Origin: a virus
DNA length: 28,306 bases
Strand: one strand, 5' to 3'
Virus record (IMG/VR): IMGVR_UViG_3300018063_000194
Coordinates: 1 to 28,306 of that record
Numbering within the stretch: the first letter of the stretch is position 1; each line of letters opens with the position of its first letter. A program made the translations under genes and the position numbers. The notes beneath the pieces were generated by a model, which had not been told where the DNA came from, searched no databases, and saw only the letters and a program-made list of their open reading frames with translations. Positions 4,020-28,306 of the stretch are shown piece by piece.

Positions 4020-5284
4020 TCTGCCAGCTCCTGGCGAGCCTCTTCAATGCTCTCACGCACCGATTTGCTCTTGGACTTAGCCTTGCCTTGTGAAGCTACC
4101 GCAGCGCCAGGGGCGCCACCTTGAATGCTGAGCCCAGCTCTGCGTGCCTTGTCGGCAGCGGCCTGCTGAACCTTCTTCTCGGTATCAGCTTTGGCCTTAC
4201 GATCTGCTGCAGCCTTGGCTGCCTGATCGGCAAGAACCTTCGTCCTGACTTCAGGCATCGCATAAAGCGCCATGTCATAGGCTTTGTCAAGGTCGGCCGA
4301 ACCATCTTCGAGCGGTGGCACCAAACCTGACCCAATGAAATGCGCCATAGCCCCACGAACATCCTCAAAGTGGGGCTTGTCCTTTGACCAGTTCCTGAGA
4401 ATGTCATTGGTCTTGGCATAGCTCTGCTCAGCAAAGGTGTTCTCAAGAGCGCCGAACTTGTTGGTGATCGCCTGCTCCATGGCGGCCTGACGCTGCTCCA
4501 GCTTGGTGATGTACTCCTGCACTGCAGGGGGCACGTCACCAGCAGGCTGCTCTACGTTAGCCTCAGCAGCCGGCTCCTTCTGTTGGCCAAGAAGCCTCTT
4601 TGGATCATATCTAAATGATTGCATCAAAGCCGGAAAGGCTTGATCGGGGGAATTCTGCAGCGCCTCAAACCATGAGAACAACTGATTGACCGCCTGCCCA
4701 GGGGTGTGCCCATGCCGGCGGATCTGCTCAATGTGAGGCTGGAGCGCCTGATCTATCTCATTGTAGCGTTGCTTGATCTCAGCAACGCCCTTGGCCATGT
4801 CGGTCTCACGCTTGGTAATGGCCGCCTGCACCACAGCCGGCACTTTGCCAGCCTCAGCTTTGGCCTCCTTGGTCCAGCCCTCGGGTGGCGTCCAGGCAGC
4901 GACAGCAGCTCCTTCCTCACCTTCAGCACCGGCCTCAGCACCTGCAGCCGCTGCGGCTTCCTGGCCCTCAACGGCTGGTTCGTCACCGCCCTCAGCCTCA
5001 GGCTCCTCCTCAACCTCCTGATGGTTGACCGCAACCTTGGTCTTGCGGACCTGCTTCTCAGACACGTCCTCTCTGGCCCGCGTCTTGCGGTCGGTGTCAA
5101 AGTTTTTCTCCAGGTCCTTCCGCAGCTTACTGCGTCCACTGCCCGGCCCATCAGCCGGCAACTCATTCAGCGGGACCCTGCCCCCAAGAGTTTCGGTGCC
5201 CTCAGCGCCCTCAGTACCGGCTTCGGTCTCAGGGGCGTAGAGGGGGGTCATTGAGCTTGACGAACGAAGGCTACGAAGCAACAT
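4016..5284 (-). CDS. Probable head scaffolding protein
   Basis: 422 residues from the ATG at 5284, chosen over a GTG three codons upstream because AGGAG sits 8 nt before this ATG. The N-terminal third is low-complexity and acidic (long Glu/Ala/Gly runs around residues 95-135). The middle and C-terminal parts are predicted helical: Gln/Glu-rich stretches such as VQEYITKLEQRQAAMEQAI, then a Lys/Ala-rich tail ADRKAKADTEKKVQQAAADK. Acidic, helical, coiled-coil-like proteins between portal and major capsid genes are the usual phage scaffolds. Sequence identity to a known scaffold is not claimed. Confidence 0.65.
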   Translation of the reverse strand: MLLRSLRSSSSMTPLYAPETEAGTEGAEGTETLGGRVPLNELPADGPGSGRSKLRKDLEKNFDTDRKTRAREDVSEKQVRKTKVAVNHQEVEEEPEAEGGDEPAVEGQEAAAAAGAEAGAEGEEGAAVAAWTPPEGWTKEAKAEAGKVPAVVQAAITKRETDMAKGVAEIKQRYNEIDQALQPHIEQIRRHGHTPGQAVNQLFSWFEALQNSPDQAFPALMQSFRYDPKRLLGQQKEPAAEANVEQPAGDVPPAVQEYITKLEQRQAAMEQAITNKFGALENTFAEQSYAKTNDILRNWSKDKPHFEDVRGAMAHFIGSGLVPPLEDGSADLDKAYDMALYAMPEVRTKVLADQAAKAAADRKAKADTEKKVQQAAADKARRAGLSIQGGAPGAAVASQGKAKSKSKSVRESIEEARQELAE

Positions 5285-5326
5285 AACGTACACTCCTCAT
5301 ATTTGGGACATCGGGTGAGGTCCCTT

Positions 5327-5515
5327 TCAACGTATGGGCATTCTCGTCCTTGGGATCATCCAAGGGGGTAATTGGGGCGGCGCTTGTGGCGCCGGGGGCG
5401 GCTGAGGTGGGGGCAATTGGTCAAACCCTTGCTGCACCCGCTGGTTCGACGTAGGTGGTGGCAACGGGTTCATGAGAGCATTCACCATGCGGGCAATCTC
5501 AGATAAATCAGCCAT
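5327..5515 (-). CDS. Small proline-rich protein, 62 aa
   Basis: From the ATG at 5515, supported by GGGAG 8 nt upstream and an 8-nt overlap with the preceding stop. The N terminus (MADLSEIARMVNALMNPLPP) is a short amphipathic helix; the rest is Pro/Gln-rich with PPPQPPPAPQAPPQLPP. Similar Pro-rich linkers occur in the two portal ORFs just upstream. Unknown function; probably a head-assembly accessory. Confidence 0.5.
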   Translation of the reverse strand: MADLSEIARMVNALMNPLPPPTSNQRVQQGFDQLPPPQPPPAPQAPPQLPPWMIPRTRMPIR

Positions 5516-5834
5516 CTGACCGTCTCCCGTTACGGTAATCATAAAGGGTACGTTGAATATCTTCACGCCGTTTTGCACGACTCAGTGGAATCGGCTTGCG
5601 GGGGCGCGTCAGGGCTGGATCATTGCCGTATTCGATGCAATTTGACGCTCTAGTGTCCTTACGAAACTCAGATTTTGACGTGTGAAAGCGCCCGGTGGCC
5701 ATGTGGCGGGTTTCTGGCATGATGTCACTAATGACGTTGGGCGCTACGCCTGCCTCAACCCGATAATCCAAGGAACGGTCAATCATTCCGTTCTCGTTAG
5801 ACATTGGGTGATCAGGACGGTACACATATCCCAT
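5508..5834 (-). CDS. Conserved-looking small basic phage protein, 108 aa
   Basis: The ATG at 5834 is preferred to a TTG at 5840 that overlaps the portal C-part stop. The C-terminal half, with TSKSEFRKDTRASNCIEYGN, DPALTRPRKPIPL and RAKRREDIQRTLYD, has the layout of a small family recalled next to phage portals (SKS-FR-TRA-x-x-C-E-G-N then R-KR-I--A-YD). One Cys, strongly basic C terminus. The reaction is unknown; position suggests head or DNA-packaging accessory. Confidence 0.6.
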   Translation of the reverse strand: MGYVYRPDHPMSNENGMIDRSLDYRVEAGVAPNVISDIMPETRHMATGRFHTSKSEFRKDTRASNCIEYGNDPALTRPRKPIPLSRAKRREDIQRTLYDYRNGRRSDG

Positions 5835-5836
5835 GA

Positions 5837-6961
5837 TCAACTCTTTGGTTTGGGTTTCTGGGCAGATTTCTTGGCTTGATTCGCAGCCGCAGTAGCCTTG
5901 TGCCCCGCTGCGGTGGCTTCATGCTTGGCTGTAGTGGTCTCATGCTTGGCCACTGCTTTGGCTGCCTCAGCTTCGTGGCCGGCAACCGTCACATCGTGCT
6001 TTGCCACGGTCTTTGCAGCATTGGCCTCATGTTTCGCAGCGGTGACCTCGTGCTCGGCAACCGTCGCAGCTGTGTCAGCCTCAGTTTCAGCCACATATCG
6101 GGCAGTTGCATGCTCGTCACGGTAGATCTCAGCATCGCTGTGCATCTGCTCACGCTCAAGCTGCATGCGCTCGCGCTCAAGTTTAAGCTCCTCAAGCTTC
6201 ACCATCAGCTCGGCATGCTTGATCTGCGCATCAATCTGCGAATTGAACTGCTCACCTTCATTTTCAAGGCGCTGGCGCTCAATTTCGGCGTTCGCAGTGT
6301 GGATGGCCGTCTGCTGGTCAAACTGCGCCGACTGAATGTCAATGGTGTTCTTCTGTGCGTCAGCCTGAGTCTTGACTTTCAGGGACTCAATTGAGGCCTG
6401 ATCCTTGGCAACCTGCGAATCGGCCTTCATTTTCTCGATTTGAGCCTTCATTTGCTCAGGACTTGGCTGCGCCGCCTGCTGTTGCAGCCTCTCCTTGGCC
6501 TTGACGGCAGCCTCTTCAGAGAATTCCTCAATGGCGGCCTCAAGATCGCGGCCAATCTTGTGCCCGCGCACGCCAAACTTGAGCAACCTGCCCAAAAGCG
6601 GGATAGCTTCAGGCATTTGCGCACCCAACGTCATTGCCTTTTCCAGAAATGACGTGGTCGCAACCACGAATTCGTTACGTTCAGATTTTTCCTCGGACAA
6701 ATCGCCGTAAATCGTGGAATCCACCTCAATATCTACACGAAATCCACGCAGCCGTTCATTGCGCAATAGCTCAATGCCACTGGCAATGCGTGTGATGGCC
6801 TTGATTTTTTCGGCTACCTGAGGGTCAGCCGGCGGCAAGACCTCACCATTGAGCGGCTGAGGGGCGCCTGGGGGCATTTGCGGCGGGGGCATAGGGCCGG
6901 GGGACCTGAAAGGCAACACATTAGGGGCCATTGGCCCACCTGGGGGCATCATTGGGGGCAT
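5837..6961 (-). CDS. Portal protein, C-terminal part (split gene)
   Basis: 374 residues. A Pro/Met/Gly-rich start is followed by LRGFRVDIEVDSTIYGD, then FLEKAMTLGAQMPEAIPLLG and a LLKFGVRGHKIGRDLE segment. In related phages, as I know the family, this FR-DIE-DST block continues the portal polypeptide rather than forming its own gene. The last ~180 residues form a long Gln/Glu/Ala helix with regular His-containing repeats (AKHExxA and AGHExxA, about 18-residue period near residues 290-360), a coiled-coil or barrel extension. Start overlaps the previous stop as TAATG, so translation is coupled. Confidence 0.75.
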   Translation of the reverse strand: MPPMMPPGGPMAPNVLPFRSPGPMPPPQMPPGAPQPLNGEVLPPADPQVAEKIKAITRIASGIELLRNERLRGFRVDIEVDSTIYGDLSEEKSERNEFVVATTSFLEKAMTLGAQMPEAIPLLGRLLKFGVRGHKIGRDLEAAIEEFSEEAAVKAKERLQQQAAQPSPEQMKAQIEKMKADSQVAKDQASIESLKVKTQADAQKNTIDIQSAQFDQQTAIHTANAEIERQRLENEGEQFNSQIDAQIKHAELMVKLEELKLERERMQLEREQMHSDAEIYRDEHATARYVAETEADTAATVAEHEVTAAKHEANAAKTVAKHDVTVAGHEAEAAKAVAKHETTTAKHEATAAGHKATAAANQAKKSAQKPKPKS

Positions 6962-8670
6962 TATCTGAGCCCTCCCGGCATGGCGCCCATAGCAGGCGGG
7001 GCGGCCGGCATAGGTGGCGGGGCCTGTGGCTTAGGCAACTGTCCCTGAGGCGGCGGCAGGGCTTGCTGCGGGGGCTGCAGTGCGCTCAGTGGCGGCATGT
7101 CGTCGGGGCCAAGCCCTTCGGCGTAGAGGGCACCGGAAACCTCAATCAAGGATTGAGCCGTGAAATGCTGGCACATGATATCTGCTATGATACACAACGT
7201 ATCGCGCGCAAACCGTGCCACATCGTTCTGACGGTGTTGCAAACGGGTGCCGGTATTGTTGGATTTCAAGCGCACACCACCCAGCGTTTCACGCGCATCA
7301 GATGTGCCACGCATGATGTCGTTGATACCAGTCAGCCGGTCCATTTCCTCAATCTGCTGCTGCTTGCACGTCATCAGCTCGTTGATGATGCCAATGATAT
7401 CCTTGACCGGCAGCAAGCTCATGTTGCCTTCGACGCCACCCTTCTCACCGGCAAAGGCAGCCCAGTCATCAACCGGCAACAATTCGTTCTCAACCGACTC
7501 ATTGAACAGCCGCTGAATGTCCTTGGCAGCTGCATTGTAGACACCAGCCATCTTGCATGCCTTGGTCAGCATGGCGATGCGCTGGCTGAGTTCGTCAATC
7601 TGCACTGCCTGATCCTGATATTGAATATAGTCAGGGACCGGGATCAGGGTGTTGTTGGTAGCGTTGGCGTAAAGCGGCCGGGGGCACGGATAAAAACCTG
7701 CGATCTTGAGCGGGTCGTCCTTGCGATCACAAAGGTAGTCATAGCCCTCAGCCACCCAGTACACGGTTTCGTCAGACTTGGACCAGATCTCAAAGATCTG
7801 GCACTTGTCCTCGTCAGTAGGCTGGGCAACCGGGCTGTTACCCTTCTCACCACGGTCGTCACGGCGCAATGGCAACGCCTTGCCAATTTTCTTGCCAAAG
7901 CGACGGATCGCCTGATCACGGCTCATATACACACGCTTGCCCACCGCCGTGACCTCGGCCCACACACGGGCACGCACCGGGAACGTGAAAAAGTCAGGCC
8001 AAGGCACATAATCAACTGGTGTGGACTCGCGGACAATTCTGTCACCAGTGTCTTGCAGCTTCTGCTCAGACAGATCCTCACCCTCAGGCGACAGATCCTG
8101 ATCTGATTCCTGTGGGTTCAACAGAAGCTTTTTGCGGCCCGCCGGGGTGGTGACTGACTTTGATATCTCACCCTGCGCGTCACGCATGTCGGTCTGCGGC
8201 TCAGGCGGCAGCGACACGCTTTGCTCGATCTCAGGCTCATACCGCACCCACACCGAACCGCGCCCCGGCAACAGGTAATCGGTGACAGCTTGGGAGAGTG
8301 CATCGTCAAAGCCACAGATCTCAATCTCATTGCGCAGCCCGCGCTCAAGGATCTGTGAGGCACCACGCGCCACCGGGTCCTTGTCCTTGAAACGACGCTC
8401 CACCACCGGCAACGGCATCTTGCCGTACAAGGCAGGCTTCAGGATCTCAACATTGGACCACAACGCATTATAGCGCCGCTGATTGTAGTCCTCGTCAGTG
8501 CGGTTGCGCTCGTCACGGTAGCGCTTCTCAATTTTCTCGCCACGTTTGACCCAAGACTTGTGATCAGGACTGTCCTTGATGGTATTGATTTGATCCTTCC
8601 AATGCATGGCCAAGCGGGAGCCCTCAGTACCGCCCTCAGGCCCAGCTAGTTCGTCAAGTTCAATGGCCAT
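6961..8670 (-). CDS. Portal protein, N-terminal part
   Basis: 569 residues. Diagnostic portal-family segments are RRYNALWSNVEILKPALYGK, PVVERRFKDKDPVARGASQI, DYLLPGRGSVWVRYEPEIEQ, PVDYVPWPDFF and KTGINDIMRGTSD-like text near residue 450 (LTGINDIMRGTSDARETLGG). These identify the wing and crown of the dodecameric portal through which DNA enters the head. The ORF ends in a Pro-rich linker (PKPQAPPPMPAAPPAMGAM) exactly where the C-terminal ORF begins. The start overlaps the terminase stop as TGATG, with AGGAT 8 nt upstream. Confidence 0.88.
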   Translation of the reverse strand: MAIELDELAGPEGGTEGSRLAMHWKDQINTIKDSPDHKSWVKRGEKIEKRYRDERNRTDEDYNQRRYNALWSNVEILKPALYGKMPLPVVERRFKDKDPVARGASQILERGLRNEIEICGFDDALSQAVTDYLLPGRGSVWVRYEPEIEQSVSLPPEPQTDMRDAQGEISKSVTTPAGRKKLLLNPQESDQDLSPEGEDLSEQKLQDTGDRIVRESTPVDYVPWPDFFTFPVRARVWAEVTAVGKRVYMSRDQAIRRFGKKIGKALPLRRDDRGEKGNSPVAQPTDEDKCQIFEIWSKSDETVYWVAEGYDYLCDRKDDPLKIAGFYPCPRPLYANATNNTLIPVPDYIQYQDQAVQIDELSQRIAMLTKACKMAGVYNAAAKDIQRLFNESVENELLPVDDWAAFAGEKGGVEGNMSLLPVKDIIGIINELMTCKQQQIEEMDRLTGINDIMRGTSDARETLGGVRLKSNNTGTRLQHRQNDVARFARDTLCIIADIMCQHFTAQSLIEVSGALYAEGLGPDDMPPLSALQPPQQALPPPQGQLPKPQAPPPMPAAPPAMGAMPGGLR

Positions 8671-10343
8671 CAGTGTATCCTAGCGTAGCCCTTGCGGCTA
8701 CGGCGCTCGTTGGCCTCAAAAAGGTCCGTCAAAGTCACGGTACACAGGGCCGGATCGGTCGACAGCACCTTGGGCTTTTCCTTTTCAGGCCCAGGCGTGG
8801 ATCCTGAGATCATCTTGTCCAGCACCTGACCTATGAGACCTATCGAGTCCACCTGGTCGTCAGTGCGCCCAGCTGGGAAGGTCATCAGCTCGGACTTGAA
8901 ATCAGGGTACCAAGGCGCGCCAATTGGCACATACAAGCCATCCATGCCCATGCGGCCACGTATTGACTGTGCCCTAATTGCCTTGTTGGTAGTGGCGGGG
9001 AACTGCGCACGGACAATGTAAAGCTTGCGCTCGCGCAGCCGCTTTTCCAGGAAGGGTCCCACGCCCTTCTTGATTTGCCCCGCCTCCTCAGCCCACCCCA
9101 GGGGCTTCCACTTCTCAACCATGTCGCACATAGCTTCCACCCACTTATCAGAGGAAGCCTGCTTACGCCATAGATCAAGAAGAAAAATGCGGCTTTGCGG
9201 GTCAACCCCCACGACCAAGTGAACGGTGTAGTCACCACCCCCATCAGTCACCGCATAGTCACTGGCGCCATAGATGTTGAGCGTTTCCCGCTTTGGCATC
9301 TCGGTAGGCGTTGGTGCATCACCGGGCCGGGTGTAGGGCTTCAGCCAGTCTGCCTGAAAGAAATCACCGCTTTCAGGTGCTGGGCGCTGTTGATACAGCG
9401 CGTTCCACGTACGGACCTTGCGCTTATAGGGGGCAAAGAACTCAGGCGTGAACCACTCAGGCCACAGAATATCACCTACCTTGCGGCCAAGTAGATCATC
9501 CTCACGTTCACATTCAGCAGGTAGGCAGACCACGTACCAGTCATTGCCGTCCTGCCCTTTGATCCAACCAGACTCACCGTTGTATTTTGGAGGTAGTATG
9601 CGCCCAGGCGGGTCGTCCTCATGCCAACGTGTATTGATCCCAATCTCCCACGCCTGAGGTTTCTTGCGGGTAAGCAGGTCGTCAAAGTATGCATCCCATG
9701 TTTTGTTCCTGATCTGCTCAGAGTCAGCTTGCTCACGTCCCTTGATCAGGTCGTCCCAGATCACCCCATCAACACGGTTGCCGGTAATGCCGGTCAAGAT
9801 GCCGCGTGCCATCCATTCACTGCCGTTGGTCAGCGCCCACTCGTCGACAGCGGCCGATTCCTCAGACAAGGTACAGTCAAAGATGCGCTTGTAAATGGGC
9901 TGCTCAACAACGGAGCGGGCGCGACGACCGAATTTACGGGGCAACTCACTTCCGTAGCTCGCAACAATGACAGACTTTTTGGGGAAGCGCCCAAGAAAAT
10001 GAGTTGGAAAGACCACTGAGGTATACACGGACTTAGCACTGCCGGGGGGCATGAGGCCGAGTAGCCGCTTGATCTCACCATCTTCCACCTTTTGAAGGCA
10101 GTCGAGCCACAACAAGTGATGGGCGCCGAAATTTCCCTTGATGGGGATGAACTTCTCACGCTCGTCGTCGTCATCAGTTGAGTGGGGTGCTGTTGGGATC
10201 TCGATCGAGCTTGCGTAGGTCAACAGATCGCTGCGGGCGCGGAGGCGCTTGTTTCTTTCCTCGGCTAAGCTCCTCAACTCGCTGTAGTGCCTTTGCAATT
10301 CGGTCATTGAGCTCTTTAGCACCAATCTCTGTCGCTTTGCCAT
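8670..10343 (-). CDS. terL: Terminase large subunit
   Basis: About 557 residues; ATP-driven DNA packaging motor and nuclease docking on the portal. Walker A is LMPPGSAKS (residues 98-105), Walker B GVIWDDLI (193-200), and the coupling-type INTRWHEDD follows (236-244). The C-terminal nuclease begins around IYGASDYAVTDGGGDYTVH, with acidic residues in DDQVDS near the end. The start is uncertain: ATG at 10343 or ATG at 10307 (MTELQRHY, with AAAGAG upstream). Both lie inside the small-terminase gene, and conserved-looking sequence (DLLTYASSIEIP) also lies in the overlap. Stop overlaps the portal start. Confidence 0.93.
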   Translation of the reverse strand: MAKRQRLVLKSSMTELQRHYSELRSLAEERNKRLRARSDLLTYASSIEIPTAPHSTDDDDEREKFIPIKGNFGAHHLLWLDCLQKVEDGEIKRLLGLMPPGSAKSVYTSVVFPTHFLGRFPKKSVIVASYGSELPRKFGRRARSVVEQPIYKRIFDCTLSEESAAVDEWALTNGSEWMARGILTGITGNRVDGVIWDDLIKGREQADSEQIRNKTWDAYFDDLLTRKKPQAWEIGINTRWHEDDPPGRILPPKYNGESGWIKGQDGNDWYVVCLPAECEREDDLLGRKVGDILWPEWFTPEFFAPYKRKVRTWNALYQQRPAPESGDFFQADWLKPYTRPGDAPTPTEMPKRETLNIYGASDYAVTDGGGDYTVHLVVGVDPQSRIFLLDLWRKQASSDKWVEAMCDMVEKWKPLGWAEEAGQIKKGVGPFLEKRLRERKLYIVRAQFPATTNKAIRAQSIRGRMGMDGLYVPIGAPWYPDFKSELMTFPAGRTDDQVDSIGLIGQVLDKMISGSTPGPEKEKPKVLSTDPALCTVTLTDLFEANERRSRKGYARIH

Positions 10344-13527: not shown

Positions 13528-13543
13528 CTAACAGGAGGTGACC

Positions 13544-14920
13544 ATGCGCAAGAACGTCAAAAAGACAATCAATCACGGCTTCACCCATGAAGGCGCCCCA
13601 GCCGCAGCCATGTCGGCTGAACAGGCTTTGCGCCGCTCTGTGATGTCCTGCTTCCTCTGGGAAAATGAATTCTATGAGGAAGGCGAGGAGATTGCTACCC
13701 GCATCATGAAGCTCGCCAGCCAGCTGCCGGGCCAGACGGTAGCCAAGATTGCCGTTGAGGCACGTGAGCGGGGCAACCTGCGACACGTTCCGCTGCTCCT
13801 TGTGTCCATCATGACCAAGTCCGGCAAGGGCACGGCAGTCGCCGACACCATTGCCCGTGTGGTACAGCGTGCTGACGAGCTAACCGAACTGCTGGCCATT
13901 CACGCCAAGATCAATAAGGTCACCCCTGACAAGATCAAGCCAACGTTGTCAGCCCAAATGAAAAAGGGCTTGGCGCGTGCCTTCACCAAGTTCGACGAGT
14001 ATCAGCTGGCCAAGTACGACCGTGACGGTGCGGTGCGGCTACGTGATGCCCTGTTCCTTGTGCACGCCAAGCCCAAGGACAAGACGCAGGCCAAACTGTG
14101 GAAGGCACTGGTCAACAACAAGTTGACTTCACCTGACACGTGGGAGGTTGGCCTCTCAGGCGGCGCCGACAAAAAGGAGACGTTTGAGCGGCTGATCCGT
14201 GACGGCAAGCTCGGCTACTTGGCCTTGCTGCGCAACCTGCGCAACATGATCGGTGCCGGCTGTGACGTTGACCTTGTGCGCAACGCCATTGTTGCCCGCA
14301 AGGGTGGCGCACAACGTGTGCTGCCGTTCCGCTACATTGCGGCGGCCCGTGCGGCGCCACAACTGGAGCCGGCCATTGATCAGGCGCTGTCTGAAGCCAT
14401 TGGTGAAATGCCGGTGCTGCCGGGCAAGTCCGCCGTGCTGGTTGACGTGTCCAGCTCCATGGAGGCCAAGCTGTCAGGCAAGTCCGACATGAGCCGCATG
14501 GACGCGGCTGCCGCCCTGGGCTCCATCATCAATGGTGATCTCAGGCTGTTCACCTTCTCGGATAGCTTAGTGGAGGTGCCGCCGCGCCGGGGCATGGCAG
14601 GCGTTGACGCCATCAAGCGCAGCCAGCGGCACAACGGCACGCAGCTGTTCGACGCCGTGGCCCAAGTCAATGCCACCGTCAAGTACGACCGCATCATCGT
14701 CATAACCGACGAGCAGGCAGCTGGCCCTGGCGTGCAGTTTGGCTACCGTATCCAGGGTCGGGTTAACCGGCTACAGGATCCGCTGAGCGGCGCATATGCT
14801 TACATGATAAACGTTGCGTCCGCGCAGCGTGGTGTGGGCTACCAGCGTTGGGTCCACATTGACGGCTTCAGCGAGGCTGTGCTGAAGTTCATCAACGAGT
14901 ACGAAAGAAATGACGCATGA
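13544..14920 (+). CDS. rsr: TROVE-vWA protein (Ro60/Rsr orthologue)
   Basis: 458 residues from the ATG at 13544, behind a near-perfect AGGAGGTGA. Residues 1-290 form the HEAT-like TROVE ring (ALRRSVMSCFLWENEFYEEG, ARERGNLRHVPLLLVSIM, LLRNLRNMIGAG are family hallmarks). Residues 295-458 form a vWA domain with a complete metal site: D301-x-S303-x-S305, T366, D389. Ro proteins bind Y RNA on the outer ring and the ends of misfolded RNAs in the hole; in Deinococcus the Y RNA tethers Ro to polynucleotide phosphorylase. Three Y RNAs lie directly upstream, so the phage carries a full Ro RNP. Confidence 0.95.
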   Translation: MRKNVKKTINHGFTHEGAPAAAMSAEQALRRSVMSCFLWENEFYEEGEEIATRIMKLASQLPGQTVAKIAVEARERGNLRHVPLLLVSIMTKSGKGTAVADTIARVVQRADELTELLAIHAKINKVTPDKIKPTLSAQMKKGLARAFTKFDEYQLAKYDRDGAVRLRDALFLVHAKPKDKTQAKLWKALVNNKLTSPDTWEVGLSGGADKKETFERLIRDGKLGYLALLRNLRNMIGAGCDVDLVRNAIVARKGGAQRVLPFRYIAAARAAPQLEPAIDQALSEAIGEMPVLPGKSAVLVDVSSSMEAKLSGKSDMSRMDAAAALGSIINGDLRLFTFSDSLVEVPPRRGMAGVDAIKRSQRHNGTQLFDAVAQVNATVKYDRIIVITDEQAAGPGVQFGYRIQGRVNRLQDPLSGAYAYMINVASAQRGVGYQRWVHIDGFSEAVLKFINEYERNDA

Positions 14921-22041: not shown

Positions 22042-22238
22042 CTGTTAATGTTCACAAGGTGCTGACATGGCGACCCCAACGCTCACCCGTCTGGTATGAG
22101 GTCTTTGATGGCACCGACTACCACGAATGCTTCGCTCACCATTGGGTTCACCGGCGGCCGTGGCGGCGCGTCTTCAAAGCAATTGAGATCTCTGAGATCA
22201 CTGCTCGCTGGCTGTACCGGGGAACTGCATCACGGTGA
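22038..22238 (+). CDS. Doubtful ORF with TWRPQR motif, 66 aa
   Basis: TTG start at 22038 overlapping the previous stop (TTGA), or GTG at 22059. VLTWRPQRSPVWYEVFDG echoes the TWRPQK motif of the proteins at 17071 and 18368, which argues for expression. But its second half overlaps the well-supported SLOG gene by 131 nt in another frame, so one reading is probably shadow there. Retained with low confidence. Confidence 0.3.
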   Translation: MTVNVHKVLTWRPQRSPVWYEVFDGTDYHECFAHHWVHRRPWRRVFKAIEISEITARWLYRGTASR

Positions 22239-22542
22239 CTGCATTGGCGCCGATGCTTCCGCTCACTCAATTGCCCTTGCCCTTGGCTTCTCAATATTCA
22301 TCCATCCCCCTGCTGATCCCAGGAAGCGAGCATTCTGTGCTGGCGCCGTGAAGGTCTTTCACGCAATGCCCTACTTGGTGCGCAACGTTGTGATCGTGCG
22401 GTCCACCTCATGCTTGATCGCTTGTCCTCACTCATCTCAGGAGCAATTAAGGAGCGGGACCTGGTCCACTATCAGGTTCGCGCGCAGTCTTGCTCGCCCT
22501 GTGTTCTTGATCTTACCGGATGGCTCAATTATTGAGGAATGA
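22108..22542 (+). CDS. SLOG-superfamily nucleotide-binding protein
   Basis: 144 residues from the ATG at 22108; TGAGGT lies about 8 nt upstream. Matches a recognisable SLOG/LOG-like pattern: IGFTGGRGG at the start, LHHGDCIGADASAHSIALAL, IHPPADPRKRAFC, PYLVRNVVIVRSTSCLIACP and RSGTWSTIRFARSLARPVFL then ILPDGS. The fold binds nucleotides or nucleotide-derived ligands; in bacteria such proteins are sensors or effectors, some in anti-phage systems. In a phage it could process or sequester a signal nucleotide, which is inference. Confidence 0.8.
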   Translation: MAPTTTNASLTIGFTGGRGGASSKQLRSLRSLLAGCTGELHHGDCIGADASAHSIALALGFSIFIHPPADPRKRAFCAGAVKVFHAMPYLVRNVVIVRSTSCLIACPHSSQEQLRSGTWSTIRFARSLARPVFLILPDGSIIEE

Positions 22543-22949: not shown

Positions 22950-23323
22950 CGCTTGTGATTTCGTTTTAGCCATGGCTTGGTTGCATGTTGGGCGTGCTTT
23001 GCCCCCACATGGCTATTGTGTTCGCGTAGTGGGGTTGGCAAGGCGGCTTGTAAGCTAATAGGCCCCCTAGCCGTGCTGCGTGGCATTGGGCTGCAACAAA
23101 AGAATACGTGATCACTGATGCGCCGTGTAATGGGCACACTTCAAGCCCGCTGCGGTAACTGATTAGGCCAGTGACAACTTGCTAGGTTGCTGTAGGGCAG
23201 TAGCAAGGTGGCCAAGGCGGTACCAGCGGCAACCGGATGGCAAGGTATCTCACGCACCCTAGCGGCCGTGCTCAAACCACGGCACGGGCCACGTAGGCAT
23301 TTGTTGCTGATTTTGCCTTGTCA

Positions 23324-23362
23324 GGCTACCCAGGTAGCCCCCATGCCCTGAAAACGCATGGG
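23324..23362. repeat. Dyad GGCTACC-CA-GGTAGCC plus hairpin
   Basis: GGCTACC (23324-23330) and GGTAGCC (23333-23339) form a 16-nt dyad; immediately after, CCCATGC (23340-23346) pairs with GCATGGG (23356-23362). The first looks like a regulator half-site pair, the second like an RNA hairpin. Confidence 0.45.
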
Positions 23363-23628
23363 CGGCCATTTGTGGGGCTTGGCGGGGCATTGCAATGCGC
23401 GGCCATGAGTCGCTGCGTTTGCTGGTACATGTCAGCTGCGATCGCACTTTCATTCACATGACCCGTACGTAAAATCCCGCTGGGTTCCACACCACCGGCC
23501 AAACCCGCAAGGGCAATTGAGTGTACTCGGGCATCACTGAATGTGAGCGAAGTCAGGTACACCTCACGGCTTGACCACACAACACACTTCAATTCGCTGT
23601 GAGCCACCACGCATCCAGCTGACCTCAC
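23326..23628 (-). CDS. Doubtful minus-strand ORF, 100 aa
   Basis: GTG start; the middle reads plausibly as protein (SREVYLTSLTFSDARVHSIA, then SAIAADMYQQTQRLMAAH). There is no clear ribosome binding site, it is the only minus-strand candidate within a 15-kb plus-strand region, and it runs across palindromes. It is listed because the composition of residues 20-80 is not obviously random. Confidence 0.2.
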   Translation of the reverse strand: MRSAGCVVAHSELKCVVWSSREVYLTSLTFSDARVHSIALAGLAGGVEPSGILRTGHVNESAIAADMYQQTQRLMAAHCNAPPSPTNGRPCVFRAWGLPG

Positions 23629-23729
23629 CGGCTAAATATCCTGCTAAGGGTTAAGCACAAACGATTAAATAGCGGCTATACCCCGTGCATTGCCGCAGCA
23701 AAGCCTACGTACTATCTCCTCCTCCTGAA

Positions 23730-23795
23730 ATGGGTGAGGGTGGGCAACGGGGCCTAGGCGCAAGCTTAGGCGTTGAACCCCACCCTCATTCCCAT
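23730..23795 (+). ncRNA. Large stem A in the operon leader
   Basis: ATGGG-TGAGGGTGGG (23730-23744) pairs with CCCACCCTCA-TT-CCCAT (23779-23795), leaving a TT bulge. Inside, CAACG/CGTTG (23745-23749 / 23771-23775) and CCTA/TAGG continue the helix. This is a long, near-perfect rod. No known RNA family recognised. Confidence 0.5.
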
Positions 23796-23801
23796 ATTGT
23801 T

Positions 23802-23912
23802 GCGGCGGTGGCATACACACATCACTAGGTTCCGGGGACGAAAGCTTAGTGCTGGATCCCGGCCACGGTGACAGTCTATGCCACCACCGCTGCAATGTGC
23901 AGCAACAGGAGG
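23802..23912 (+). promoter_or_regulatory. Structured cassette 1 before the gene at 23918
   Basis: Outer stem GCGG-c-GGTGGCATA (23802-23815) with TATGCCACC-a-CCGC (23877-23890) encloses CACTA/TAGTG. A short hairpin GCTGC-AATGT-GCAGC (23889-23903) then abuts AACAGGAGG and shares its 5' bases with the outer stem, so the two compete. Same plan as the eight cassettes downstream. Confidence 0.55.
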
Positions 23913-23917
23913 ATGAA

Positions 23918-24097
23918 ATGAATACCAAGTCGATTGCTACGTTCCTGGCCTCAAAACTCAGCGAAGACCTGAGTGAGGGCGCGTCCAACATTCTCACGCT
24001 CACTGCTACGCATCACCACGATGAGGGTGATGAAAACGTAGTTTCAATTGAAACCACTGAAGGACAGCGGTTCATGGTAATCGTCATCAGGGCTTGA
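23918..24097 (+). CDS. Small acidic protein, 59 aa
   Basis: ATG at 23918 behind CAGGAGGATGAA. MNTKSIATFLASKLSEDLSE is a helix; LTLTATHHHDEGDENVVSIE and the final RFMVIVIRA are strands, with a HHHDE cluster that could bind metal. No family recognised. First gene of the structured-cassette operon. Confidence 0.6.
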   Translation: MNTKSIATFLASKLSEDLSEGASNILTLTATHHHDEGDENVVSIETTEGQRFMVIVIRA

Positions 24098-24104
24098 GGG
24101 GGCT

Positions 24105-24164
24105 CATCGCAGGGCGGCGTGTAGCAGCGCCGCCTCACGATGCACCTTGCATCACAGGAGGAGA
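24105..24164 (+). promoter_or_regulatory. Structured cassette 2 before the gene at 24167
   Basis: Outer CATCG (24105-24109) with CGATG (24138-24142) encloses H1 GGCGGCG/CGCCGCC (24113-24134). H2 GATGC-ACCTT-GCATC (24139-24153) reuses the 3' strand of the outer stem and is followed directly by ACAGGAGGAGA. Confidence 0.6.
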
Positions 24165-24166
24165 AA

Positions 24167-24631
24167 ATGAAAAGGACTACTGAGCATAGAGCCTATTGGA
24201 AGCGTGTGTGGCAACAGGCACTGACGAACATGCCACACCGCGACAGCCAAAAGAGCAAGGTGTGGATGGATCAGCCTGTGGGCACAACACCTATTGGTGA
24301 GGCCATCCGTGGTCAAGCGCACGGCACCATCCAGATTATTGATGGCCGCGTGCAAAAGCTTGTGCCTGTCAGGTATGGTCAGCGAGCCGCATTGGCGCGC
24401 ATCCTTGGCTACTACGTCATCTACAAAGAGCGCGTGCAGGTTCACTCTCAGCGCATGTATCACGAACTGAATGAGAGCCCTGAGCCCCGTGACCCTGCCA
24501 AACGCAAGTTGCTGCTGGATCTTGCCGGCCCCAAAGGCACTCACATCGCCCGTGAGTTGCTTGCTGAAAAGGGCGTGCTGCAGAAATGGTATGTTCCCGC
24601 CACGCAGGTGTGGATAGACGACGCAGTTTGA
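24167..24631 (+). CDS. Unknown protein, 154 aa
   Basis: ATG at 24167 behind ACAGGAGGAGAAA. Basic, helical start (TTEHRAYWKRVWQQALTNMP), then PIGEAIRGQAHGTIQIIDGR, RILGYYVIYKERVQVHSQRM and AGPKGTHIARELLAEKGVLQ. No motif I can assign. Well-expressed by its ribosome binding site. Confidence 0.6.
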   Translation: MKRTTEHRAYWKRVWQQALTNMPHRDSQKSKVWMDQPVGTTPIGEAIRGQAHGTIQIIDGRVQKLVPVRYGQRAALARILGYYVIYKERVQVHSQRMYHELNESPEPRDPAKRKLLLDLAGPKGTHIARELLAEKGVLQKWYVPATQVWIDDAV

Positions 24632-24665
24632 ATGGGGCAGCAATGCCCCATTCCCCTTCATGATC

Positions 24666-24772
24666 CCCTAGGCGGCGACATTTGATCGGGCCTGCGCGTG
24701 GGCCATCCTCCTGCGCACGTGGGTTTTGATTGGATGTCGCCACCTGGGGCATCACGCCTCAAACAGGAGGAG
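24666..24772 (+). promoter_or_regulatory. Structured cassette 3 before the gene at 24776
   Basis: The longest cassette. A hairpin GAATGGGG/CCCCATTC (24630-24653) follows the stop. Then CCCTAGG-c-GGCGACAT (24666-24681) pairs with ATGTCGCC-a-CCTGGGG (24734-24749), one mismatch. H2 GGGGC-ATCAC-GCCTC (24746-24760) competes for the last GGGG and precedes ACAGGAGGAGA. Confidence 0.6.
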
Positions 24773-24775
24773 AAA

Positions 24776-25243
24776 ATGAACGTTGACAATATGACAGCGC
24801 TTGCGGCACTGCTCGACACGGTCAACCCGGCCAAGTTCGACATGCGCGGCTGGGTGATGTGGCTGGGTGGCGTCGAGATGACGTGCGAGGATTTTCACCA
24901 CGTTGGTGAGTGTGGCACCACCGCCTGCATCGCTGGCTGGGCCTTTCATCTGGCCCACCCCGACGTTGACAAAAAGAAAGACGCCCTCGCTACAGGCGTC
25001 TACCTTGACGGTGTAGCCGGCCGATGGCTGGGGCTGAATATCACTGAGAGACAGTGGCTGTTCTACGGTCACTGGTCGAATACCAAAGTTGAGCCCACCG
25101 GCGTGGGTCTCGGCGGCCCGCAAGAAGCCGCAGAGGCTGTGCGTGCCATGATCGCAGCTGGCGGTATCCCTGGCATGTACAGTGATGCGATCTTCGGCCA
25201 GTTGCCTGACGATGATGAATACCTGGATGACTTTGACTTCTGA
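24776..25243 (+). CDS. CGT-x-x-C family protein A, 155 aa
   Basis: ATG at 24776 behind AACAGGAGGAGAAA. MTALAALLDTVNPAKFDMRG, then GECGTTACIAGWAFHLAHPD, VAGRWLGLNITERQWLFYG and PQEAAEAVRAMIAAGG. The blocks L-A-x-L-x, F-D/N-M-x, C-G-T-x-x-C-x-x-G-x-A, LGI/LNITxxQxxxLF and A-V-x-x-L recur in the proteins at 25315, 27134 and 27521. The C-terminal extension is acidic (PDDDEYLDDFDF). Function unknown. Confidence 0.6.
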   Translation: MNVDNMTALAALLDTVNPAKFDMRGWVMWLGGVEMTCEDFHHVGECGTTACIAGWAFHLAHPDVDKKKDALATGVYLDGVAGRWLGLNITERQWLFYGHWSNTKVEPTGVGLGGPQEAAEAVRAMIAAGGIPGMYSDAIFGQLPDDDEYLDDFDF

Positions 25244-25307
25244 GTGCAACTAGGATGGCCCATTACTGGGCCATCTCAGGGTGCATTCTGCACCAACACA
25301 GGAGGAG
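25244..25307 (+). promoter_or_regulatory. Structured cassette 4 before the gene at 25315
   Basis: Outer GTGCA (25244-25248) with TGCAC (25289-25293) encloses H1 GATGGCCCA-TTAC-TGGGCCATC (25254-25275). H2 GGTGCA-TTC-TGCACC (25280-25294) reuses the outer 3' strand and precedes ACACAGGAGGAGA. Confidence 0.65.
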
Positions 25308-25314
25308 ATTATGC

Positions 25315-25797
25315 CTGCAACCACCGCAAGGACGCAGGCGGCTTCTCAAGCTGGCTGACTTGCTGGAAGCCAATGCCAACAATCCAACCGGCGCCAAGTT
25401 CGACTACAACTTCTGGGGCTATGTGCCGGAAGGGGCTCAGGTTGCCGTGGACTGTGGCACCACCGTATGCGCATTGGGGCTGGCGGCCATCTCAGGCCAG
25501 TTCCCTGGGCTGGGCTACAAGGTCGGCCGCTACGACCCTGAGATGAAGGCCAATTGGCTTGAGATCACCCTGGAAGGCTCCAGTGAAGAATACGGCACAA
25601 ACATGGCCGCCGAGGTGTTCGACATCACCAAAACTGAGTCGGGGTTTCTGTTCGTAAACGCACCCATCAGTTTACGTGGCGCCGAAGGTGAATTGGCACT
25701 GGCGGACATCATCCGCCGGTTTGTGGCCGGCGAGTCACTGGCGGACATCGAGTTCGAAATCCTTGAGGATAACCCTGAACTCAGTCCAGACAACTGA
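25315..25797 (+). CDS. CGT-x-x-C family protein B, 160 aa (start in wrong frame)
   Basis: The ribosome binding site points to an ATG at 25311, but that frame stops after 15 codons (TGA 25356). The real protein lies in the +1 frame, where the first possible non-AUG start is CTG at 25315. LLKLADLLEANANNPTGAKF, then AVDCGTTVCALGLAAISGQF and FDITKTESGFLF, LALADIIRRFVAG match protein A blocks. Either a non-AUG start, a +1 frameshift, or a one-base change in the phage (or assembly). Acidic C terminus. Function unknown. Confidence 0.5.
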   Translation: MQPPQGRRRLLKLADLLEANANNPTGAKFDYNFWGYVPEGAQVAVDCGTTVCALGLAAISGQFPGLGYKVGRYDPEMKANWLEITLEGSSEEYGTNMAAEVFDITKTESGFLFVNAPISLRGAEGELALADIIRRFVAGESLADIEFEILEDNPELSPDN

Positions 25798-25868
25798 TAC
25801 AGCTAGGGCAGCTCCTTAATTGGGGCTGCCTCAAGGTGTATCAATCACGATACACTAACACAGGAGGA
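25795..25868 (+). promoter_or_regulatory. Structured cassette 5 before the gene at 25873
   Basis: Outer TGATACA (25795-25801) with TGTATCA (25837-25843) encloses H1 GGCAGCTCC/GGGGCTGCC (25807-25830). H2 GTGTATC-AATCA-GATACAC (25836-25855) reuses the outer 3' strand and is followed by TAACACAGGAGGAGA. The stop of gene B lies inside the outer stem. Confidence 0.65.
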
Positions 25869-25872
25869 GATT

Positions 25873-26058
25873 ATGTTGAACGTGCAGCACGAAGTGAAGG
25901 GCGACAAGCTGATCATCACGGTGGATGTCAGCAAGAAGCTCATCGAGAACGCGCCCATGACCAAGTCGGGCAAAAACAAGAACGTGGCCAGCACCGAAGG
26001 GTTCACAAGTGTGAACGGCAACGGCTTGCGCTTCGGCCTCAACGTCATCTCGAAGTAA
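25873..26058 (+). CDS. Small phage protein, 61 aa
   Basis: ATG at 25873 behind ACAGGAGGAGATT. GDKLIITVDVSKKLIENAPM, then TKSGKNKNVASTEGFTSVNG and RFGLNVISK: two or three strands with a basic loop, a compact layout familiar in small podovirus-type early proteins. No catalytic motif. Function unknown. Confidence 0.6.
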   Translation: MLNVQHEVKGDKLIITVDVSKKLIENAPMTKSGKNKNVASTEGFTSVNGNGLRFGLNVISK

Positions 26059-26119
26059 CGCTGCTCGCTGCCTGTCAGCAATGGCAGGCAGCAGGAAGCG
26101 CTACGCTTCACACAGGAGG
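26059..26119 (+). promoter_or_regulatory. Structured cassette 6 before the gene at 26125
   Basis: Outer CGCT (26059-26062) with AGCG (26097-26100) encloses H1 GCTGCCTG/CAGGCAGC (26067-26092). H2 GAAGCG-CTA-CGCTTC (26095-26109) reuses the outer 3' strand and precedes ACACAGGAGGAGAA. Confidence 0.55.
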
Positions 26120-26124
26120 AGAAT

Positions 26125-26316
26125 ATGCGGAAACTTTGTGATAGCCGGAATGATTTGGCGTTTCCCATCACGCTGATCCAAACTGGCAAAAACCAGTTCA
26201 GCGTCATCTACGGTGAGCAAGAAAAGCACGATCTTACCTACTCAGACGCAGCACACGAATACGGCGTCTGCGTCATGCATGCTTTGGCTTGTGATGGGAA
26301 GGTCATCAATGACTGA
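26125..26316 (+). CDS. Small protein, 63 aa
   Basis: ATG at 26125 behind CACAGGAGGAGAAT. FPITLIQTGKNQFSVIYGEQ then YSDAAHEYGVCVMHALACDG: beta-hairpin followed by a helix, three Cys. Overlaps the next gene by 8 nt. Function unknown. Confidence 0.55.
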   Translation: MRKLCDSRNDLAFPITLIQTGKNQFSVIYGEQEKHDLTYSDAAHEYGVCVMHALACDGKVIND

Positions 26317-26854
26317 CAATCCCAACATGGTGGCCTACATCAGCAAGCTGGATGCTGGTGACAAGGCCATCATCTGTGCGGCCATACGTCAATACAGCCA
26401 CGACTTCAGAAACCTGGACGTGCATCCAGGCATGCTACCATTCATCTCAATCAAGCACGTGGTGGCTTGCGTCAATCTGAAGTGTCACAACAGTCAGGGC
26501 CAGTATCTCAGAGCACACACATCTGTGCTCAACAAGCTTGAGTCGCACAAATGGGGTCCGCCGTTAGTCTTCAATGGCACTAAGCCCATTAAGCTGCTGC
26601 GCAAGCTGGACGATGGGCTGGTTGCCAAGCGCTTGGGGATTCATCCTGATCGTGGCGTGCCCATCCCCGGTTTGGCTGCCGTCATCAAGCGACCCCGTGA
26701 CCGCAAGATGTTTGAAAAGGCCACGGATGCCTATGACAACCAACATCCAATGATGACACTGACGCGATTGACTGAGGGCATGTGGCAGATCAGCTGCCCT
26801 GAGCAATACCAGCACTATGTCGATATGTGGTGCCTGGACTATCTGACCAAATAA
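26309..26854 (+). CDS. Unknown protein, 181 aa
   Basis: ATG at 26309 with GGGAAGG upstream; the only gene of this operon that starts by overlap instead of a cassette. MVAYISKLDAGDKAIICAAI, then HPGMLPFISIKHVVACVNLK and TRLTEGMWQISCPEQYQHYV. Basic centre (AVIKRPRDRKMFEKATDAYD). No family recognised. Confidence 0.55.
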   Translation: MTDNPNMVAYISKLDAGDKAIICAAIRQYSHDFRNLDVHPGMLPFISIKHVVACVNLKCHNSQGQYLRAHTSVLNKLESHKWGPPLVFNGTKPIKLLRKLDDGLVAKRLGIHPDRGVPIPGLAAVIKRPRDRKMFEKATDAYDNQHPMMTLTRLTEGMWQISCPEQYQHYVDMWCLDYLTK

Positions 26855-26870
26855 CACAGGAGGAGAAGGC

Positions 26871-27062
26871 GTGGAAAAGACAAAGGACCCCAATTACTAC
26901 GACGTCGCGCAAATGAAGCGCATCGCAGCTGCCGAGAGCCTCATCGAGCAGTACAACAAGCTTGATATCCACGGCGGCACCAACATGTTTGTCATCCCCA
27001 AAGGTGACCTGAAGGTCATTCTTGAGGCCCTTGGGTGCCCAGTCACGTTCGTGGAGACGTAG
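26871..27062 (+). CDS. Small protein, 63 aa (GTG start)
   Basis: GTG at 26871 behind ACAGGAGGAGAAGGC; here the ribosome binding site lacks the two-hairpin cassette. MKRIAAAESLIEQYNKLDIH, then GGTNMFVIPKGDLKVILEAL. Helical, mildly acidic, one Cys. Function unknown. Confidence 0.55.
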   Translation: MEKTKDPNYYDVAQMKRIAAAESLIEQYNKLDIHGGTNMFVIPKGDLKVILEALGCPVTFVET

Positions 27063-27065
27063 CCT

Positions 27066-27130
27066 AACTGCAAGGAGCACAGCATTACGGTGCTGTGCGA
27101 CGTGCAGTTGATGCACGAACACAGGAGGAG
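27066..27130 (+). promoter_or_regulatory. Structured cassette 7 before the gene at 27134
   Basis: Outer AACTGCA (27066-27072) with TGCAGTT (27103-27109) encloses H1 GCACAGCA-TTACGG-TGCTGTGC (27077-27098). H2 CGTGCA-GTTGA-TGCACG (27101-27117) uses the same 27103-27106 bases, so outer stem and H2 exclude each other. ACACAGGAGGAG follows. Confidence 0.65.
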
Positions 27131-27133
27131 AAA

Positions 27134-27445
27134 ATGAACACTACAGGACTCATGGCGTTGGCTGATCACATCGAAGCCAACACCAGCAGAACCTTCAACA
27201 TGTCCACCTACTCAGGGTGCTTCCTTGGGTTCAACGCAGACATGCTCAAGTGGCCCACCATCGACATGGTCAATCCAAAAAGCTTTGCCGCACACTATGA
27301 GATCACAGTTGATCAGGCACGCAGCCTTTGTTGGGGCGACTACCCCCTGTCAACAAACCTGCGTTACGTCAGCAGGGAGCAAGGTGTCCGCACATTGCGA
27401 CACTTTGCGGGCACCGGCATGGTGGATTTCACAATCGGCCAATAG
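27134..27445 (+). CDS. CGT-x-x-C family protein C, 103 aa
   Basis: ATG at 27134 behind ACAGGAGGAGAAA. LMALADHIEANTSRTFNMST, YSGCFLGFNADMLKW and YEITVDQARSLCWGD, then REQGVRTLRHFAG. It is a clear paralogue of protein D (L-A-x-I-E, F-x-M, C-x-x-GF-A-x-L, x-I-T-x-x-Q, REQ-V-TLR). Three Cys. Function unknown. Confidence 0.6.
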   Translation: MNTTGLMALADHIEANTSRTFNMSTYSGCFLGFNADMLKWPTIDMVNPKSFAAHYEITVDQARSLCWGDYPLSTNLRYVSREQGVRTLRHFAGTGMVDFTIGQ

Positions 27446-27451
27446 CGCAAA

Positions 27452-27517
27452 GATGGCAGACAACGGCCCTCAGCAATGGGGGCCGTCGATGTGCCATCAC
27501 GGCACTAACAGGAGGAG
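27452..27517 (+). promoter_or_regulatory. Structured cassette 8 before the gene at 27521
   Basis: Outer GATGGCA (27452-27458) with TGCCATC (27492-27498) encloses H1 ACGGCCC/GGGCCGT (27463-27486). H2 GTGCC-ATCAC-GGCAC (27491-27505) competes with the outer stem. TAACAGGAGGAGA follows. Confidence 0.65.
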
Positions 27518-27520
27518 AAA

Positions 27521-27805
27521 ATGAACGTCAACGCAATTGATGAACTCGCCAATTACATCGAGAAGCGCACCGACAAGAAATTCGACATGGCCCGTCACCA
27601 GGACTGCATCCTGGGGTTTGCAGCTGATCTATGGGTCCTGCACGGCGTTGTCGCCGACGTGGGCGATAAGCTTGGGATCACAAGGCAGCAGGGTCAGCAA
27701 CTGTTCTTCGCCTTAGACTCTCGGGTAGTCCTGAACAAGTTAACCAGGGAGCAAGCCGTGAGCACCCTCCGTAATCTGGCAGTCATCGGCAACGTAGAGT
27801 GGTAG
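27521..27805 (+). CDS. CGT-x-x-C family protein D, 94 aa
   Basis: ATG at 27521 behind AACAGGAGGAGAAA. IDELANYIEKRTDKKFDMAR, DCILGFAADLWVLHG, KLGITRQQGQQLFFALDSR and LTREQAVSTLRNLAVIGNVE. Closest to protein C; the shortest and cleanest member. One Cys. Function unknown. Confidence 0.65.
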   Translation: MNVNAIDELANYIEKRTDKKFDMARHQDCILGFAADLWVLHGVVADVGDKLGITRQQGQQLFFALDSRVVLNKLTREQAVSTLRNLAVIGNVEW

Positions 27806-27875
27806 TGCAACTCGCTGCTCATCCTTAGGGGTGGGCAGCAGGGTGTGCTCTTGAAGCGCACTAACACAGGAGGAG
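27803..27875 (+). promoter_or_regulatory. Structured cassette 9 before the gene at 27879
   Basis: Outer TAGTGC (27803-27808) with GCACTA (27858-27863) encloses H1 GCTGCTCA/TGGGCAGC (27814-27839). H2 GTGTGC/GCGCAC (27843-27861) competes with the outer stem. ACACAGGAGGAGA follows. Confidence 0.65.
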
Positions 27876-27878
27876 ATC

Positions 27879-28306
27879 ATGTCAAAACTTTCTGAAAGGG
27901 CAATGCTTGCTGCATTGCATACCGGGGCTTGGTCGGGTGCTGCGCACGACCAGCAGGTGACTGAGGAAGTCAGTGAGGCACACAAAGCCGCCGAGCGCGA
28001 CGCAGGGCGCTACACCAAGCAATTGGTGTCCAATAAGTTCCTGCGCCACGTCACCGGCAAGCTGTCCACGGCACGTCGCATCCACCGGCTGCTCACGCTG
28101 CCGTGGGATGATGACGGCACACGCATCCTCAGCTGCACCGGACACGCGCACTACACCGAGCAGATGCGGCTGCAACGCCACGGCATCGAGGCTGCGGCAG
28201 TTGAGTTCGTCAAGGGCCTGCCCGACTACATCAAGGAGGCCCGTGAGCGGCTTGGCACCATGTTCGACAAGGATGACTACCCTGATGCGGACAGCGTGCG
28301 CAAGAA
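27879..28306 (+). CDS. DUF3150-like protein (3' end outside window)
   Basis: ATG at 27879 behind ACAGGAGGAGATC; 142 residues visible. SKLSERAMLAALHTGAWSGA, RYTKQLVSNKFLRHVTGKLS, LTLPWDDDGTRILSC and RERLGTMFDKDDYPDADSVR fit the pattern of the phage/plasmid DUF3150 family as I know it: an N-terminal L-x-x-L-x-x-S/T-x-W motif and a LPW-D-G-x-R block. In other phages these genes often lie beside MoxR-type AAA ATPase and vWA genes; the downstream sequence is not in this window. Confidence 0.65.
   Translation, partial: MSKLSERAMLAALHTGAWSGAAHDQQVTEEVSEAHKAAERDAGRYTKQLVSNKFLRHVTGKLSTARRIHRLLTLPWDDDGTRILSCTGHAHYTEQMRLQRHGIEAAAVEFVKGLPDYIKEARERLGTMFDKDDYPDADSVRK

Follow-up and report, generated by a model that had tools for sequence, protein, structure and literature searches.

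Structured intergenic RNA modules and a candidate anti-Shine-Dalgarno hairpin in one gene block of related phages

Repeated leaders and antisense loops at translation starts have each been described in phages and bacteria. In cluster K mycobacteriophages, the extended Shine-Dalgarno (SD)-like sequence SAS/ESAS recurs before many genes, with an inverted repeat upstream of about half of the copies, and its function is given as unknown (PMC3203893). Within the open-access literature, SAS/ESAS is the closest described repeated leader. The ribonuclease III (RNase III) sites of phage T7 mature and protect mRNAs (PMC8708148), and the internal loop of one of them, R1.1, is asymmetric (4/5; PMC6121014). 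Terminal hairpins, both 5' and 3', and strong SDs slow mRNA decay in bacteria (PMC7509114). The small RNAs (sRNAs) of the alpha-r14 family, such as NfeR1 of Sinorhizobium, combine variable stems with ultraconserved anti-SD loops and silence mRNAs through base pairing in the translation initiation region (PMC10746234), and the c4 antisense RNA of phages P1 and P7 blocks translation by loop pairing around the ribosome binding site (PMC12197685). Here we describe nine intergenic modules in the 28,306-base IMG/VR virus record IMGVR_UViG_3300018063_000194 of a soil phage (the whole record is called the window), together with a hairpin in related phages whose loop is complementary to the SD that follows the modules. 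In each module, a segment X pairs with X' to form an outer stem around hairpin H1, or X' pairs instead with X'' to form hairpin H2. The best explanation is two-layer RNA control of one block of small phage genes, by processing modules and an anti-SD RNA, and we give it about an even chance of being right.

All nine gaps follow the order X–H1–X'–X''–SD–ATG, and the genes behind them start at 23918, 24167, 24776, 25311, 25873, 26125, 27134, 27521 and 27879. This common plan had been proposed in a preliminary description of the window and was confirmed by dinucleotide shuffling of each gap, in which the observed score was reached by none of 200 shuffles in seven gaps and by 1 of 200 in two. The modules, each supported by the shuffles and module 2 also by a match to the covariance model R1 described below, are as follows.

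23799..23903, +, module 1, large variant: X 23799-23814, H1 23832-23862, X' 23878-23895, X'' 23898-23903
24105..24153, +, module 2: X 24105-24109, H1 24111-24135, X' 24138-24144, X'' 24148-24153
24661..24760, +, module 3, large variant: X 24661-24681, H1 24693-24717, X' 24734-24754, X'' 24756-24760
25242..25294, +, module 4: X 25242-25248, H1 25254-25275, X' 25280-25288, X'' 25289-25294
25795..25856, +, module 5: X 25795-25801 (includes the stop), H1 25806-25830, X' 25835-25843, X'' 25849-25856
26055..26109, +, module 6: X 26055-26062, H1 26067-26092, X' 26095-26104, X'' 26104-26109
27065..27117, +, module 7: X 27065-27072, H1 27077-27098, X' 27101-27110, X'' 27112-27117
27452..27505, +, module 8: X 27452-27458, H1 27463-27486, X' 27491-27498, X'' 27501-27505
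27803..27862, +, module 9: X 27803-27809, H1 27814-27839, X' 27842-27849, X'' 27855-27862

Gaps 1 and 3 (before 23918 and 24776) are larger variants with outer arms of 16-26 nucleotides (nt). Two further junctions of the same block, before the genes at ~26310 and ~26871, have no such fold, and the latter keeps the common SD.

The same plan was recovered in many related contigs. No DNA match to the window was found among the INPHARED phages; for its major capsid protein, identity is 53% with Bradyrhizobium phage ppBjS10J-1, 48% with Stenotrophomonas phage BUCT555 and 47% with Myxococcus phage Mx8. A terminase scan of IMG/VR yielded 80 related stretches, including contigs of 78–96 kb. The first copies came from a parser tuned by eye, and the covariance model R1 was then trained on 76 copies. 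Among 20 records searched whole, 13 had R1 matches, about 135 in total at E ≤ 0.001; part of the training copies came from these records and match by construction, with G025, G030 and G031 lying outside the training set. Most element-bearing records have several matches (G029 and G033 have one each), and within each contig the matches form a single block on a single strand in one orientation. Three relatives close by terminase (G003, G004 and G006) had no R1 match. A scan of bacterial genomes with one loop-class pattern gave 11 chance matches, all lacking the hairpins of the element.

The preliminary description had further held that the stems differ in every copy while the pairing is kept, that the outer stem and H2 exclude each other, and that a covariance search of other phages would be a fair check. 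These points are borne out by the comparison of copies. Double compensatory changes occur at 15 of 16 consensus pairs (RNAalifold), and the X–X' and X'–X'' pairs are both kept at 428 of 453 triple positions, so the two helices that share X' are both conserved with covariation. Since the parser itself might favor pairing, partners were swapped among copies: own X:X' and own X':X'' pairing scored above all 2000 permutations, both over 83 copies and over the 32 copies without a common GAAGC core. Among the seven window copies in the clean set alone, own pairing was reached by 1 of 2000 permutations for X:X' and 4 of 2000 for X':X''. Under symmetric scoring, G·T outnumbers A·C by 55:17 in the outer stem and by 23:5 in H1, and this excess on the sense strand indicates that the selected molecule is the RNA of the coding strand. 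No conserved boxes other than the SD were found in the element. Furthermore, the fold occurs with a different SD, AAAGAGGGAAA, in G030, G025 and G031, whose terminases are unrelated or were not found; thus the fold and the SD sequence are separable. Taken together, a conserved RNA element with two exclusive helices is close to certain. Rfam 15 gave no covariance-model match at gathering in the window, L177, L178 or L133, nor were there relevant weaker hits close to the element or the anti-SD hairpin. H1 similarity is 0.42-0.49 beside homologous upstream or downstream genes vs 0.39 beside unrelated ones, a small difference with respect to inheritance of the module.

The dimensions of the element are tightly kept. 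Of 85 parsed copies, 80 have 20–25 positions in X, internal loop and H1 together; H1 itself usually has 8–10 base pairs (bp), and the linker between H1 and H2 is 3 nt in 63 of 83 copies. The internal loop is asymmetric, mostly 3x2 or 1x2; GTC/TG is the commonest class (40 copies), and ACG/AA, ACA/CA and A/CA also occur. In predicted folds, state A (X:X' plus H1) is better than the competing state B by 4.5 kcal/mol on average. The median outer-stem probability is 0.87 in the intact RNA; that of H2 rises from 0.03 in the intact RNA to 0.90 in the 3' product predicted for a cut after H1. H1 does not read as an intrinsic terminator (a stem followed by a T-run): the one terminator-like site on the + strand of the region overlaps H1 of the large variant in gap 3, and the 6 such sites found in total compare with 5.2 expected by chance.

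We favor an RNA-processing and end-protection module over a ribosome switch, and the chance that processing and end protection are its main function seems to us about balanced. The nascent RNA would adopt state A, which resembles a T7 RNase III site and in which X:X', the asymmetric internal loop and H1 make up ~22 bp. If the internal loop were cut once on its 3' side, the upstream message would end in H1 as its 3'-terminal hairpin. The 5' end of the downstream message would fall 2-3 nt ahead of the 5' arm of H2, and X' would exchange X for X'', closing a hairpin at this 5' end right in front of a strong SD; the exchange of strands would also separate the two cleavage products. Stabilizing hairpins at the ends of bacterial mRNAs are known (PMC7509114), and in the proposal both would be made from one intergenic module via strand exchange. 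Like the T7 sites, the modules are intergenic, extend over about two helical turns, run from lower stem through an asymmetric internal loop to upper stem, and are followed by the SD of the next gene. T7 R0.3, R0.5, R1 and R4.7 share the plan, each with a lower stem of 9–11 bp, an asymmetric loop and an upper stem of 9–10 bp before the next gene. Among the T7 cut positions used, that of R18.5 is probably misplaced. The T7 sites are few, whereas the new element stands before almost every gene of a block and its cleavage is a prediction. The module can therefore be called T7 RNase III site-like in plan, with membership resting on cleavage. Several observations weigh against a processing function: H2 is already favored in the intact fold of 17 of 83 copies, T7 sites lack an X'' hairpin that captures X' and most T7 3' products are nearly unfolded, and no phage-encoded RNase III gene was found in 13 records, so that the host enzyme must be assumed.

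Three other functions of the module have to be weighed against processing. The preliminary description placed the outer stem at the previous stop codon, and this is the usual arrangement, with the stop within −6 to +4 nt of the start of X in 69 of 83 copies and exactly at it in 26; it does not extend to gap 1, where no convincing gene ends at X, or to gap 3, where the stop lies ~37 nt upstream. This position, the two exclusive conserved helices and the preference for state A unless X is occupied would all suit the coupling switch put forward in that description, in which a ribosome at the stop melts X, H2 forms and the next start is tuned. Coupling as the main function is not supported by the remaining evidence and is unlikely: L177 5773, L189 11624, L162 4593 and window gap 1 have no upstream open reading frame (ORF) ending at X, SD accessibility is about the same with the fold (0.43) as with a shuffled leader (0.40), the tight length of 20-25 is not predicted by coupling, and compact phage genomes would place a module at the stop anyway. 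The recurrent loop classes, conserved geometry and free stem sequence could also be explained by an RNA-binding protein, of the phage or of the host, that recognizes the asymmetric internal loop between variable helices. X'' would not be needed in a pure binding site, and the TROVE (Ro60-like) protein, the single obvious candidate, was rejected as a general partner, as it was found only in the window and not in the other twelve records searched; such a protein is quite unlikely as the explanation. Finally, a structure that is kept while its sequence varies, starting at the previous stop and lying between small variable genes, recalls a DNA-level element (a recombination site or cruciform, integron attC-like) that spreads small gene cassettes. 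Integron attC sites combine a single-stranded-DNA structure with conserved core boxes, and the element has no such boxes except the SD. The G-T pairs far above A-C on the sense strand, the single orientation and single block per phage, and the purely chance matches in the bacterial scan with one class pattern also speak against a DNA element, which is hardly credible.

The second layer concerns the SD. In the window it extends to AAC(AC)AGGAGGAGA, and its copies are listed below.

23906..23913, +, SD of gene 1, variant (CAGGAGGA then TGA)
24155..24162, +, shared SD of gene 2
24764..24771, +, shared SD of gene 3
25299..25306, +, shared SD of gene 4
25861..25868, +, shared SD of gene 5
26113..26120, +, shared SD of gene 6
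26854..26866, +, shared SD (ACACAGGAGGAGA) of the gene with the GTG start at 26871, not preceded by a structured module
27122..27129, +, shared SD of gene 7
27509..27516, +, shared SD of gene 8
27867..27874, +, shared SD of gene 9 (the gene runs off the end of the record)

A ribosome binding site common to all nine gaps had been claimed earlier; it is shared before genes 2-9, and gap 1 carries the variant AACAGGAGGATGA. The gene at 26871 has the SD without the fold, which again makes the two separable.

The complement of the SD was searched for on the coding strand. Element-bearing relatives have one hairpin with a loop complementary to their own shared SD, the loop/SD pair being TTCTCCTCCTGTT/AACAGGAGGAGAA (type A) or, in unrelated phages, TTTCCCTCTTT/AAAGAGGGAAA (type B). 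The stems are mostly 10–19 bp and different in each phage, and the loops are 13–24 nt. The complement between loop and own SD spans 14 nt in G013, G024 and G026, 13 nt in G027 and G028, 11 nt in G025 and G030, and 10 nt in G031; the hairpin stem of G029 is the same as that of G013, and the two are not independent. Most of these hairpins are on the same strand as the block and no more than a few kb beyond it, several of them followed by T-runs; G013 has one more element on the far side of its hairpin, and for G005 the placement relative to its few elements is less clear. In G013, G024, G026 and G027, the 11-mer ACAGGAGGAGA occurs on the element strand only in the block and on the other strand exactly once, as the loop. 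The window record ends at 28306, inside the gene block, and the anti-SD hairpin is known from the relatives; no relative of the last gene of the window was found, and a search for the window's own anti-SD RNA through exact TCTCCTCCTGTGTT sites gave no hairpin among the matches listed (at least 119). For the window phage, one hairpin past the block is predicted, with a loop containing TCTCCTCCTGTG(TT).

The predicted pairing is specific to type. Loop–SD pairing is about -16 to -24 kcal/mol for A-A (full SDs) and about -14 to -16 kcal/mol for B-B, and about -7 to -13 kcal/mol for cross pairs. Pairing with a generic 16S tail is weaker than loop pairing for both SD types. In the phages with an anti-SD loop, the SD hardly varies over most of AACAGGAGGAGAA, including positions outside the 16S-pairing part (G027 is looser), and the type B SD, AAAGAGGGAAA, is near-invariant despite its poorer match to 16S. 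A flanking stem as strong was seen at 6 of 4000 random 13-nt sites, and at none of at least 119 exact sites of the similar 14-mer TCTCCTCCTGTGTT in other contigs, among the matches listed. When GGNTTCTCCTCCTGTT was scanned for, strong hairpins (score above 27) were confined to these phages and to contigs whose stems are identical; the anti-SD loop test covered relatives without the element in part. One could argue that the loop arose by chance or is just the structural loop of a terminator, and that the SD is conserved only for strong translation, the more so as several hairpins run into T-runs and could be ordinary terminators. This is improbable, as the loop tracks the lineage-specific SD, the type B SD is kept although it matches 16S less well, and comparable stems are rare at the control sites. 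Judging from sequence, the SD/anti-SD pairing is very probably a real feature of the relatives.

Translational control by the hairpin, in trans or over the whole block, is somewhat more probable than not, and the simplest reading is a phage anti-SD RNA that acts on the block and probably represses it. The SD would be conserved beyond what 16S needs because it is also the target of a phage hairpin RNA with an exactly complementary loop. Such an RNA, encoded on the same strand beyond the block and in many cases with an end resembling an intrinsic terminator, would prevent initiation on every cassette message at once, for example in late shut-off or feedback. It may be a separate sRNA, a product of a 3' untranslated region, or a cis hairpin of the operon end. 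Some evidence counts against this view: the loop complement of G009 is just 9 nt long, that of G005 (11 nt) sits in a weaker hairpin, the match to its own SD is 7-9 nt per gene in G025, and the hairpin may be only part of a longer transcript.

A hairpin with an anti-SD loop and a variable stem, as in the relatives, is what characterizes alpha-r14 and NfeR1, with expression and repression being predictions here. The alpha-r14 RNAs are chromosomal and have three hairpins with CCUCCUCCC, whereas the phage RNA has one hairpin with the loop TTCTCCTCCTGTT or TTTCCCTCTTT; unlike alpha-r14, its loop is tailored to the extended SD of a gene block and differs between lineages with that SD. By sequence and hairpin number, it is no alpha-r14 member. 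The c4 RNA targets ant mRNA, whereas here the whole block would be reached via the shared SD. In the available part of the SAS/ESAS report, the repeats follow a consensus sequence within a subcluster, GGGATAGGAGCCC with a 17-bp conserved repeat, and neither an alternative third strand nor a complementary RNA is described (PMC3203893); the SD here is AACAGGAGGAGA or AAAGAGGGAAA, and the stems vary per copy. Tentatively, and at slightly below even confidence, the two layers could form a private translation code, in which the extended SD of the block is read by ribosomes and by a matching phage anti-SD RNA that coevolves with it between lineages, while one cut per module gives protected 3' and 5' ends. 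If so, a single small phage RNA would set the translation of ten to twenty or more phage genes via one shared SD, the SD/anti-SD pair would be a lineage-specific code, and the module would offer synthetic operons a natural part for converting one operon RNA into separate messages, each with protected ends. Why phages repeat extended SD-like sequences such as SAS/ESAS could then be approached by a simple sequence test, namely a search for a complementary loop.

Variants of the element were also observed. A second, longer structured leader precedes a DUF2201/VWA gene at L178 ~5892 (-), L162 ~7494 (-), L188 13785 (+) and L133 ~7947 (-); it keeps H2 and the shared SD, lacks the usual X and H1, and contains a conserved GACCTACCTCT or a close variant of it. 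In L178, block genes at 7153-8178, 4709-5893 and 8794-9669 (all -) encode a MoxR-like ATPase, a DUF2201 metallopeptidase/VWA protein and a protein resembling the DUF3150 protein of Synechococcus phage MinM2; a cyanophage with a DUF3150 homolog had no model match. Half elements, in which X, H1 and X' are present and either X'' or an adjoining SD is missing, were seen at L190 5095-5139 and 1086-1133 (+) and in L209, L210 and L220. A 71-nt query matched two Klebsiella phages among the INPHARED isolates, vB_Kpn_Cap62 and 1 TK-2018 (L229 1170-1275 and L230 960-1075), with a partial, intergenic hairpin resembling the outer stem and H1 but without H2, possibly an RNase III site.

In the window itself, the gene after module 4 (25311-25797, +) stops after 15 codons and the rest of the phage protein continues in another frame to 25797, likely a frameshift or a sequence error. 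The ~750 bases before the block (22950-23705) have no obvious gene. They are followed at 23705-23790 by a hairpin with 25-nt arms, the opposite strand of which ends in AGGAGGAGGAGATA, as if a divergent element were located there. The anti-SD-like CTCCTCCTCCTG at 23715 lies outside a hairpin loop, reads with its partner hairpin as an opposite-strand SD-bearing element, and was not counted as an anti-SD hairpin. Farther upstream, 22096-22542 (+) encodes a protein that matches the SLOG cluster 4 family weakly, with a score under the curated cut-off, and 13538-14920 (+) encodes the TROVE plus vWA (Ro60/Rsr-like) protein, PHROG 850.

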